A stretch of 64,000 bases of DNA. Origin: Moritella yayanosii. Lineage in GTDB: Bacteria; Pseudomonadota; Gammaproteobacteria; Enterobacterales; Moritellaceae. The translations under genes were made by a program, and so were the position numbers. The notes under the pieces are model-generated. The model worked only from the letters and a program-made list of their open reading frames with translations, did not search any database and was not told the DNA's origin. The stretch covers positions 3,100,001-3,164,000 of the forward strand of contig NZ_LS483250.1 in assembly GCF_900465055.1 (NCBI RefSeq), written 5' to 3'. Of this stretch, positions 12,079 through 18,216 are shown one piece after another; within the stretch, counting starts at the first letter, position 1, and every line of letters begins with the position of its first letter.

Positions 12079-12154
12079 TGGTGGGCTGTGAAGGATTTGA
12101 ACCTTCGACCAATTGATTAAAAGTCAACTGCTCTACCAACTGAGCTAACAGCCC
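12079..12154 (-). tRNA. tRNA-Lys (TTT), copy 1
   Basis: A complete 76-nt cloverleaf including encoded CCA. The acceptor is GGGCTGT/ACAGCCC, the anticodon loop is CTTTTAA (anticodon TTT) and the T loop is TTCAAAT. It is the operon-distal copy of the duplicated unit. Confidence 0.96.
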
Positions 12155-12210
12155 CCGTATTCTTTCTTTTTATAGCTTCATGCCTTATGACATAAACACC
12201 ACAATTTAAG

Positions 12211-12286
12211 TGGTGGGTCCTACTGGGCTTGAACCAGTGACCCTCGCCTTGTAAGGGCGATGCTCTCCCAACTGAGCTAAGGACCC
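12211..12286 (-). tRNA. tRNA-Val (TAC), copy 1
   Basis: A 76-nt cloverleaf with encoded CCA, acceptor GGGTCCT/AGGACCC and anticodon loop CTTACAA (TAC). Confidence 0.96.
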
Positions 12287-12324
12287 ACATTATTTTTAGC
12301 GATAGTTGTGGCTATCGTTTAAAC

Positions 12325-12401
<77 letters not shown>

Positions 12402-12441
12402 ACAATGCTGAGTTTACTTTAAAAGTAAATAATAAAGAAAG

Positions 12442-12517
12442 TGGTGGGCTGTGAAGGATTTGAACCTTCGACCAATTGATTAAAAGTCAACTGCTCTACC
12501 AACTGAGCTAACAGCCC
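12442..12517 (-). tRNA. tRNA-Lys (TTT), copy 2
   Basis: Identical to the copy at 12079-12154, offset by exactly 363 bp. Confidence 0.96.
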
Positions 12518-12573
12518 CCGTATTCTTTCTTTTTATAGCTTCATGCCTTATGACATAAACACCACAATTTAAG

Positions 12574-12649
12574 TGGTGGGTCCTACTGGGCTTGAACCAG
12601 TGACCCTCGCCTTGTAAGGGCGATGCTCTCCCAACTGAGCTAAGGACCC
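12574..12649 (-). tRNA. tRNA-Val (TAC), copy 2
   Basis: Identical to the copy at 12211-12286, offset by 363 bp. Confidence 0.96.
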
Positions 12650-12687
12650 ACATTATTTTTAGCGATAGTTGTGGCTATCGTTTAAAC

Positions 12688-12764
<77 letters not shown>

Positions 12765-12804
12765 ACAATGCTGAGTTTACTTTAAAAGTAAATAATAAAG
12801 AAAG

Positions 12805-12880
12805 TGGTGGGCTGTGAAGGATTTGAACCTTCGACCAATTGATTAAAAGTCAACTGCTCTACCAACTGAGCTAACAGCCC
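12805..12880 (-). tRNA. tRNA-Lys (TTT), copy 3
   Basis: Same sequence as the other two tRNA-Lys copies. The spacer between it and the next tRNA-Val differs from the repeat unit, so the duplication boundary lies about here. Confidence 0.96.
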
Positions 12881-12946
12881 CCGAATTCTTTCTTCATCGT
12901 AAATCCCGTTACTTATCTTATAAAAGATATAACCAGACTTAATATA

Positions 12947-13022
12947 TGGTGGGTCCTACTGGGCTTGAACCAGTGACCCTCGCCTTGTAAGGGCGATGCT
13001 CTCCCAACTGAGCTAAGGACCC
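12947..13022 (-). tRNA. tRNA-Val (TAC), copy 3 (promoter-proximal)
   Basis: A 76-nt cloverleaf with anticodon TAC, the first gene of the operon. The flanking DNA is unlike the repeat unit, suggesting that this is the ancestral first gene. Confidence 0.95.
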
Positions 13023-15999: not shown

Positions 16000-16011
16000 T
16001 GTAAGACATCG
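16000..16011 (+). promoter_or_regulatory. Putative UvrY/GacA/VarA box upstream of the first Csr RNA
   Basis: TGTAAGACATCG lies 181 bp before the -10 element. TGTAAG is the conserved half of the GacA-family box (TGTAAG-N6-CTTACA). The same string with one change (TGTAAGAGATCG) is found at 17596 before the second Csr RNA. The second half-site is poor. Confidence 0.5.
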
Positions 16012-16192
16012 CCCATTTATAGTATGTGAATATGACGTTTATCTATTATAGTCATATTCGTTTTCACTCATGAGATACACCCTTACTTTAATTATAAAGC
16101 ATTGATATTAAATGTCTTGTTTATTTTAGTGAGCTAGATCTTGTATTTATTTTGAAAATAATGTAATTGCCGTGTTGCGGTAATATTGGATT

Positions 16193-16538
16193 TCTCTATA
16201 GTAGGTATCCGTAAGGACGCATAATATAGTTGGTAAGGATTACTGACTAGATATGGATTATCGAATAGGATTTACCACAGGATGTGGTTGCAAGGAAAAG
16301 TCTTCAGGATGAAGATGCGATGGACACTCAACGGATATGAGTATAAAGGACACCTCTAGGATGGAGAGGAAATAAATCGGCATGATTTATTGTACCAGGA
16401 TGGTAATAATAAAAACCCGATGGATTGGGAGTTAAACCTAAAGGAAATTAGGTAAGTCAATTTGCAGGGAGCAACATAAGTTCAAGGATTGGGCTACATG
16501 ACTACTTAAGGACGGCATTTATGCCGTCCTTTTCTTTT
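16193..16538 (+). ncRNA. csrB: CsrB/CsrC-type CsrA-sequestering sRNA, copy 1
   Basis: About 345 nt of non-coding DNA with roughly 20 GGA motifs, many exposed in small hairpin loops: CCACAGGATGTGG, CTTCAGGATGAAG, CCTCTAGGATGGAGAGG, TACCAGGATGGTA. Others are in AAGGA linkers, and the end is a strong terminator. This is the architecture of CsrB/CsrC RNAs, which bind many CsrA dimers and relieve CsrA control of carbon metabolism, motility and biofilm genes. TAATAT at 16181-16186 is a likely -10; the 5' end is estimated. It shares blocks with the RNA at 17806 (AAAGGACACCTC; GCAGGGAGCA; AGTTCAAGGAT). The name csrB is by type, not by orthology. Confidence 0.9.
16508..16538 (+). terminator. Terminator of Csr sRNA copy 1
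   Basis: An 11-bp perfect stem (AAGGACGGCAT / ATGCCGTCCTT) is followed by TTCTTTT. The last GGA motif lies inside the stem. Confidence 0.92.
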
Positions 16539-16856
16539 ATCTGCGGTTTTATTTCTGCTTTTATTTCAATGATAACCAGGCGTGTACCTTGCTGGTTTAT
16601 CGTACGATCTCTTGCCGTTATCGCTCATTTATTACCATGCACTGTGATAGTGCTTAACAACGCTTACATGAACAGTTGTTGAACATTCGATTGCCATCCA
16701 GTTATATTCATTTTATCTTCTCTACAGCGTAGTTACCCCACTCAAAATGGCAGTTTTATTAACCTGTATTTATTTAAAGTAACGCATATAATAGTGCTAG
16801 GTCAGATGCCTGTATTGATAGTAATCTGATGCTAATTCGAGCAAGAGAACGAGATG

Positions 16857-17513
16857 ATGAAGACGACCGATAATACCTTTATTGAAGCAGATTTTACAGA
16901 TCAAGATTTAGAATCGATGATCTTTACTCGCTGTGCATTTTACCGTTGTAATTTTAATCATGCGCAGCTCAGTGATGCACAGTTTATTGATTGCCAATTT
17001 TTTGAATCTGGTAACATCTCAGGCTGCCGATTCGATTATGCCGATTTAAAAGGCGCGAGTTTTAAGAACTGCGATTTAAATATGAGTCAGTTTGTTGGGG
17101 CTGAGTGTTTTGGCATTGAATTTCGTGGCTGTAATTTGAAAGGCGTAGACTTTAATCGCGCTAGTTTTGCTAATTACATTACTCAAAAGTCCTTCTTTTG
17201 TTCTGCGTACATTACTCAGTGTAATTTGAGTTATGCCAATTTGGCTGATCAGCTGCTCGAAAAATGTGAATTATATGAAAATCGTTGGACGGGCTGTAAT
17301 TTAGTGGGGGCCTCATTACAGGGATCGGATCTGAGCCGTGGTGAATTTTCGCAAGAGAGTTGGCTGCAGTTTAATCTTCAACATTGTAATTTAAGTCACG
17401 TGGATCTCACCGGTCTCGACCCAAGACGGGTTAATTTACACGGTGTGACCATTTGCAGTTGGCAGCAGGAACAACTGTTAGCCCCGTTGGGATTAATTAT
17501 TCATGGTGATTAA
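16857..17513 (+). CDS. qnr: Qnr-type pentapeptide repeat protein
   Basis: A 218-residue right-handed beta-helix protein of A(D/N)LXX repeats. It aligns along its whole length, as I remember it, with QnrA and QnrS: shared strings include GCNLKGVDF-like GADF repeats, FFCSAYI, CNLSYANL, LEKCEL, GSDLSRG, LDPRRVNL and WQQEQLL. Qnr proteins mimic DNA and protect gyrase and topoisomerase IV from quinolones. Such chromosomal genes in marine bacteria are regarded as the source of plasmid qnr. The second of two adjacent ATGs (16854, 16857) gives exactly 218 residues and aligns with the QnrA start. No mobile element or LexA box was seen nearby. It stands alone between two Csr RNAs. Confidence 0.9.
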   Translation: MKTTDNTFIEADFTDQDLESMIFTRCAFYRCNFNHAQLSDAQFIDCQFFESGNISGCRFDYADLKGASFKNCDLNMSQFVGAECFGIEFRGCNLKGVDFNRASFANYITQKSFFCSAYITQCNLSYANLADQLLEKCELYENRWTGCNLVGASLQGSDLSRGEFSQESWLQFNLQHCNLSHVDLTGLDPRRVNLHGVTICSWQQEQLLAPLGLIIHGD

Positions 17514-17533
17514 TAAGATCGAGTGATCACGAT

Positions 17534-17556
17534 CACAGATTAACTGTGGTTTCTTT
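17534..17556 (+). terminator. Weak terminator after qnr
   Basis: A short CACAG-ATTAA-CTGTG hairpin is followed by GTTTCTTT. The stem is only five pairs. Confidence 0.4.
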
Positions 17557-17595
17557 ATACGATACCGGTGTTGAGATTATTGGTTGTTATTGACG

Positions 17596-17607
17596 TGTAA
17601 GAGATCG
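17596..17607 (+). promoter_or_regulatory. Putative UvrY/GacA/VarA box upstream of the second Csr RNA
   Basis: TGTAAGAGATCG lies 198 bp before the -10 TATATT (17794-17799, extended by TGC). Sequence and distance match the box at 16000, consistent with the long-range UvrY activation known for csrB genes. Confidence 0.5.
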
Positions 17608-17805
17608 ACTATTTATGTTGGTAGACAACGTCGCTATATTCAGGTGTGATCCGAGGGTGTGAATAGATTTTTTGCTATTACTGTCATGCTTAAAGCCTAT
17701 TCTCGCGGTATTTGTCGCGATTCGCACTGAATAATTAGTGTTCATGCACTAATTTAATTTGTTTTTATCGCTATTTATTGTTTTTAGGTTTGCTATATTT
17801 GTTTT

Positions 17806-18118
17806 CAGAGACGCAGGAAGCTCATCAGGATGATGACTTAGCACTCTACATGAAACCGCAAGGATGTGGTGGATTACAAGGATAGCACTCACGGATTTAG
17901 AGTGAATAAAGGACACCTCCAGGACGGAGATGAGAAGCAGGTTAGGATGACTTGTTAGGCTAGGATTGCCAAAGGAACAACTCAAAGGATTGGGGAAAAG
18001 TAAATCAGCTAATGGATTAGGTAAATGTCTAAGTGCAGGGAGCACAATCAGTTCAAGGATATGAGCTATTACGACAACGGAAAAGGGCTGCACTAGTTAC
18101 TAGTGCAGCCCTTTTCTT
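17806..18118 (+). ncRNA. csrC: CsrB/CsrC-type CsrA-sequestering sRNA, copy 2
   Basis: About 310 nt with 18 or so GGA motifs (GCAGGAAG, CAAGGATGTGG, CTCCAGGACGGAGA, GCTAGGATTGCC, CTAATGGATTAGG and others), mostly in loops of short hairpins, ending in a long terminator stem. It shares ordered blocks with the RNA at 16193 but is clearly diverged, so the pair is an old duplication. The promoter is an extended -10 TGCTATATT at 17792-17800 with no obvious -35, as expected for an activator-dependent promoter. An open frame on the other strand (17749-18093) is an artefact of this RNA. The symbol is by type only. Confidence 0.9.
18081..18118 (+). terminator. Terminator of Csr sRNA copy 2
   Basis: The stem GGGCTGCACTAG / CTAGTGCAGCCC with a TTA loop is extended by AAAA/TTTT and followed by TTTTCTTTT. 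Confidence 0.94.
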
Positions 18119-18216
18119 TTGCCTAAAATTTACTTTCACACAAACAAGACCTATCACATAAACGCTACCAGTCACGTAAATCCGGTATTATTTAAGTCAT
18201 AGGTATTCACTTCATA

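Follow-up and report, generated by a model that had tools for sequence, protein, structure and literature searches.

CsrB-type RNAs of Moritella: a pair flanking a chromosomal qnr gene and a third paralogue built as a repeat array

The window analysed here, i.e. the whole 64-kb stretch C1:3100001-3164000 of a 4.43-Mb single-contig Moritella genome, contains two CsrB-type RNAs, csrB1 and csrB2, with a chromosomal qnr gene between them. Both belong to the "sponge" RNAs, a class that titrates the metabolic regulator CsrA. A third csr RNA, csrB3, is encoded elsewhere in the same genome as an array of tandem units. This array is more surprising and more important than the pair itself. It is highly probable that csrB1 and csrB2 are separate, UvrY-activated RNAs that would titrate CsrA, with csrB3 as a third ancient paralogue and qnr as a bystander. 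The sequences show that both RNAs fit the covariance model of the family, that they are conserved and have boxes upstream as well as terminators, that csrA and uvrY are present, and that the paralogy is ancient; activation by UvrY, binding of CsrA, and the independence of qnr are inferred.

The following features were located in the window (RNA bounds were set by promoter and conservation):
16000..16017, +, UvrY/GacA-type box (TGTAAGACATCGCCCATT), 207 nt ahead of the csrB1 start
16197..16202, +, putative csrB1 promoter -10 element TATAGT, proposed from conservation
16207..16541, +, csrB1, CsrB-type RNA, ~335 nt, 20 GGA
16508..16541, +, csrB1 intrinsic terminator, AAGGACGGCA-TTTA-TGCCGTCCTT, then T-rich
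16790..16853, +, conserved segment ahead of qnr (TATAATAGTGCTAGG...GAGCAAGAG), promoter/leader-like, 75–88% identity
16857..17513, +, chromosomal qnr, pentapeptide-repeat protein of 218 aa
17522..17537, +, weak CRP-like palindrome (AGTGATCACGATCACA) in the qnr-csrB2 spacer, immediately downstream of the qnr stop codon
17596..17613, +, UvrY/GacA-type box (TGTAAGAGATCGACTATT), 207 nt ahead of the csrB2 start
17794..17799, +, putative csrB2 promoter -10 element TATATT, proposed from conservation
17803..18120, +, csrB2, CsrB-type RNA, ~318 nt, 18 GGA
18085..18120, +, csrB2 intrinsic terminator, GGGCTGCACTAG...CTAGTGCAGCCC TTTTC

Identity and conservation of csrB1 and csrB2

Both RNAs were recognized as CsrB (RF00018) over the full model length by Rfam cmscan, with 90.3 bits for csrB1 (16230-16541, +) and 92.4 bits for csrB2 (17803-18120, +) against a gathering score of 71. 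The original prediction had named them CsrB/CsrC-type and suggested this very check, which bears the assignment out. It had also described two GGA-rich, terminator-ended loci of 345 and 310 nt on one strand at a spacing of 1.6 kb; the GGA counts, the intrinsic terminators, and the (+) strand agree with that description, as do the lengths of 335 and 318 nt and the distance of 1.6 kb between the starts obtained here.

The numbers of GGA motifs in csrB1 and csrB2 are far above the respective shuffle means of 7.1 and 7.7, and the maximum reached in 2000 mononucleotide shuffles was 15. Among all 320-nt plus-strand segments of the 64 kb, the two RNAs rank first and second for GGA, the next best segment having 8. 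Folding predicts that 15 of 20 motifs in csrB1 and 15 of 18 in csrB2 are unpaired. The terminator of csrB1 comprises 10 pairs and is invariant, with a predicted energy of -16.6 kcal/mol in all 11 Moritella species. The values predicted for the csrB2 terminator range over the species from -24 to -29 kcal/mol, and its alignment displays compensating changes. Single-base indels between species occur inside both RNAs despite 95–96% identity, which supports the earlier view of these loci as non-coding. A coding reading, the antisense ORF at 17749-18093, was ruled out by single-base indels between species within ~96% identical sequence.

The original prediction had proposed a comparison of the locus across related genomes. 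This comparison revealed the order cyaA-csrB1-qnr-csrB2-cyaY in all 11 Moritella genomes searched. The pair is preceded by cyaA and followed by cyaY, a small lipoprotein gene (lptM-like), lysA, dapF, and xerC; the names lptM, lysA, dapF, and xerC are presumed from the sequences. Mean pairwise identities among the 11 Moritella were 95.4% (csrB1), 96.2% (csrB2), 83% (qnr), and 64–70% (most spacers). Neither cyaA/cyaY nor srmB/gspB neighbours were present at any of the non-Moritella csrB loci examined, save for a 22% helicase match in one of them (L081). Elsewhere in the window, at 12079-13022, there is a run of eight tRNA genes in which the order Lys-Val-Met recurs, for the most part every 363 nt.

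Promoters, upstream boxes, and Csr regulators

The box TGTAAGA-N-ATCG-N-C-N-ATT precedes both csrB1 and csrB2 by 207 nt and csrB3 by 211 nt. The pattern occurs twice in the window and three times in the 4.43-Mb genome, each time ahead of a csr gene; since it was derived from those same three sites, it is this exclusivity, not the matches themselves, that is informative. A looser version of the pattern gave 36 matches in 10 other Moritella, all 36 ahead of csr genes. Of the palindrome TGTAAG-N6-CTTACA published for UvrY/GacA, the boxes match the left half-site alone. Across 11 species, identity is 89% around the csrB1 -10 element (16190-16209), compared to 53–79% just upstream, and 93% around that of csrB2 (17756-17801).

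The genome encodes a single copy of csrA and a UvrY homologue (72% identity to the E. coli sequence) that is followed by uvrC. The match between the RNAs and this set, a single csrA plus a uvrY-uvrC locus, supports their assignment to the Csr system. Phosphorylated UvrY would activate csrB1 and csrB2, each via its own box ~207 nt upstream, and each RNA would be transcribed separately. With 18–20 GGA sites apiece, most of them predicted to be unpaired, the two RNAs would bind the single CsrA and titrate it off its mRNAs.

An additional link to cAMP-CRP, by which the cAMP made by the product of the neighbouring cyaA would tune csrB2 (or qnr) through a CRP site in the spacer behind qnr, is improbable. 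The right half of the only CRP-like palindrome in the window is conserved in most species, but the palindrome has three mismatches to TGTGATCTAGATCACA, a match also obtained in 17 of 100 shuffled windows, and its location ~270 nt from the csrB2 start is unusual. Likewise, csrB1 lies directly behind cyaA, yet cyaA is an ordinary conserved neighbour. In Salmonella, csrC is reportedly inhibited by CRP-cAMP (cited in PMC11882849).

The qnr gene and its relation to the Csr circuit

As originally predicted, the gene between the two RNAs is a chromosomal qnr. Its product matches the NCBIfam equivalog NF033086 (Qnr) with 327.6 bits at a cut-off of 240, stays below the cut-off of every named mobile Qnr family, and has Qnr 3pss and QnrB1 2xtw as the nearest solved structures. 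The start at 16857 is conserved in 11 of 11 species, with ATG at 16854 as an alternative. The dN/dS values of 0.03–0.08 between the window's copy and the other Moritella copies point to purifying selection on an old resident of this locus. A second, more distant qnr-like gene was found in the same genome (C1:4354755-4358094) in fragments, with stop codons and a split of ~2.5 kb; an uninterrupted 60% homologue is present in another genome (G006).

The csrB pair probably works independently of qnr; as far as the Csr circuit is concerned, the gene is most likely a bystander. We base this on the unconserved spacer, the gene's own upstream segment, the invariant csrB1 terminator, and the lack of conserved GGA in the qnr leader, as well as on foreign qnr loci and a precedent in Shewanella oneidensis. 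Among the 11 species, the ~250 nt behind the csrB1 terminator are poorly conserved (38–76% identity at 16550-16789), whereas the final 60 nt ahead of qnr are conserved and include a TATAAT-like element. This conservation suggests that qnr has a promoter-like segment of its own. No CsrB was detected within the fetched flanks, some of them short, at 16 loci of qnr relatives in other genera.

The original prediction had raised the idea that transcription reads through the csrB1 terminator into qnr, so that activation by UvrY would raise Qnr too. This is very unlikely and does not fit the strong, invariant terminator, the unconserved sequence behind it, or the conserved segment right before qnr. 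Where a common csrB1-qnr transcription unit would have a weak or absent terminator, one of 10 invariant pairs was found. In Shewanella, RT-PCR revealed no csrB2 transcription from the intervening gene, and transcript sizes exclude a joint transcript (PMC3171408). The arrangement compatible with read-through, i.e. csrB1 and qnr on the same strand with 313 nt from the csrB1 end to the qnr start, is indeed retained in 11 of 11 species, and position could therefore matter for qnr. The cyaA-to-dapF neighbourhood is equally conserved, however, and since the order of cyaA, lysA, and dapF is the same in all Moritella examined, synteny alone is no evidence of a functional link. Post-transcriptional coupling, i.e. 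binding of CsrA to qnr mRNA that the two flanking RNAs would relieve, would accord with the many mRNAs under CsrA control (PMC7652899) but is hardly credible for a leader that has no GGA in 8 of 11 species, including the window's, and only unconserved GGA in the rest. Adjacency to qnr is no evidence of a tie to quinolone protection.

Origin of the pair

In a tree of 49 csr RNAs, csrB1, csrB2, and csrB3 each formed one clade with support of 100/99 or better. The csrB1 and csrB3 clades were sisters (95/86), and csrB2 grouped, more weakly (91/74), with csrB of other families; the deeper branching order is uncertain owing to some long outgroup branches. This topology indicates that csrB1, csrB2, and csrB3 are three ancient csr RNA paralogues of Moritella. 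Both a recent csrB duplication and gene conversion between csrB1 and csrB2 are rejected on the basis of the tree. That a single csrB was recently duplicated in tandem around a mobile qnr cassette, a scenario brought to mind by the common strand and equal box spacing of csrB1 and csrB2 and by the putative recombinase reported near a Moritella qnr in 2008 (PMC2556341), is very unlikely given the separate clades on long stems, their different sister groups, and a qnr under purifying selection that is in place in all 11 species.

The repeat-array RNA csrB3

A third copy of the upstream box in the genome led to the discovery of csrB3:
C1:2474793-2475428 (locus L054), -, csrB3, third csr RNA, flanked by a gspB-like and an srmB-like (helicase) gene

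The names of these two neighbours are presumptive. The locus is 20 kb from csrA. In the window's genome, csrB3 is 636 nt long and contains 46 GGA and 9.2 copies of a 50-nt unit. Each unit comprises the hairpin CTTC-AGGAA-GAAG followed by GTTGC-AGGAT-GCGAC or GTTAC-AGGAT-GTAAC, i.e. two GGA loops. There are 17 distinct units. In 98 second hairpins, one base pair was G-C (82), A-T (13), or G-T (3) and was never broken; as units multiply by copying, this covariation may reflect few events. The whole-RNA minimum-energy fold contains the second hairpin in every unit but the first not in all of them; the two-hairpin unit is based on unit alignment and resemblance to CsrA sites.

Relatives of csrB3 were examined at loci L065-L072, L089, and L119-L121. 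Complete csrB3 genes across Moritella consist of 3–13 tandem units of ~50 nt and are 339–853 nt long, with 22–62 GGA. Both unit number and gene number differ between species. Several Moritella genomes possess two or more csrB3, one draft assembly having as many as five csrB3 boxes, and the counts in drafts are minima because contigs often break within the array. Our literature search, which covers few subscription journals, found no report of internal expansion in a CsrB-type RNA.

A covariance model of the csrB3 unit matched 11 of 11 Moritella. Elsewhere it mostly hit single or isolated units within ordinary CsrB RNAs, with three overlapping matches in G088 alone, and among 369 genomes sampled across the class it matched the own genome only. 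Two other cases of internal repeats were found; the check for such repeats covered 38 non-Moritella CsrB stretches, so that further internal expansions may exist. One is the CsrB-type RNA of G088 (L114, 1-1401), in which another unit, of 26 nt, occurs ~6 times; the other is a CsrB of nearly 700 nt in G201 (L118, 1-1001), in which a longer repeated module was recognized by eye. None of the other internal expansions found is as regular as the Moritella array. The repeats in G088 and G201 are unrelated to the Moritella unit, and internal expansion, therefore, seems to have more than one origin.

Comparison with known Csr systems

The Moritella RNAs share with E. coli CsrB/CsrC (RF00018) the covariance-model match, GGA-loop hairpins, an intrinsic terminator, a far-upstream box, a single CsrA, and the presence of UvrY. 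Unlike E. coli, Moritella has three paralogues, one of them a repeat array, and GGA numbers of 20 (csrB1), 18 (csrB2), and 46 (csrB3) compare with 22 in E. coli CsrB.

The original prediction overstated the case in regarding a close pair around a gene as unusual. In S. oneidensis, the single gene SO_1616 is enclosed by csrB1 and csrB2, which have a UvrY box each and are transcribed separately (PMC3171408). The enclosed gene there is a transposase, not qnr, and the RNAs are ~420 nt long (PMC3171408). Close csrB pairs were also found in several other genera. One genome (G018) carries five consecutive csrB genes, spaced ~700 nt apart (L073, C1:4533806-4536939).

Multiple csrB out-paralogues with VarA boxes are also known as csrB1-4 of Vibrio tasmaniensis; these have a more complete box palindrome, and no internal array is noted in the accessible part of the source (PMC6262261). 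Pseudoalteromonas fuliginea, a cold marine bacterium, likewise has three Csr RNAs, Pf1-Pf3, with 25, 21, and 9 GGA (PMC11882849), whereas csrB3 of Moritella has as many as 62. The chromosomal Qnr of marine Gammaproteobacteria are of the same protein family as the window's qnr product and include MsQnr from the same genus (PMC2556341); in contrast to Moritella, the qnr loci examined in other genera are without adjacent csrB. Literature searches found no csrB link for MsQnr, no paper pairing Moritella with CsrB, and, at the level of titles and abstracts, none on both qnr and csrB about such a locus. The pair shows the wiring of the Csr circuit in a deep-sea and cold-water genus for which the literature searched contained no Csr RNA paper.

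The unrelated repeats in G088 and G201 suggest that internal expansion of CsrB RNAs may be a recurrent route. About as likely as not, Moritella may set its CsrA-titrating capacity by the number of tandem csrB3 units, i.e. by a modular sponge that expands and contracts, in addition to duplication of the whole gene. If so, sponge strength would evolve fast without promoter change. The gain or loss of whole protein-binding modules in csrB3 would make copy-number tuning of sponge capacity directly testable.
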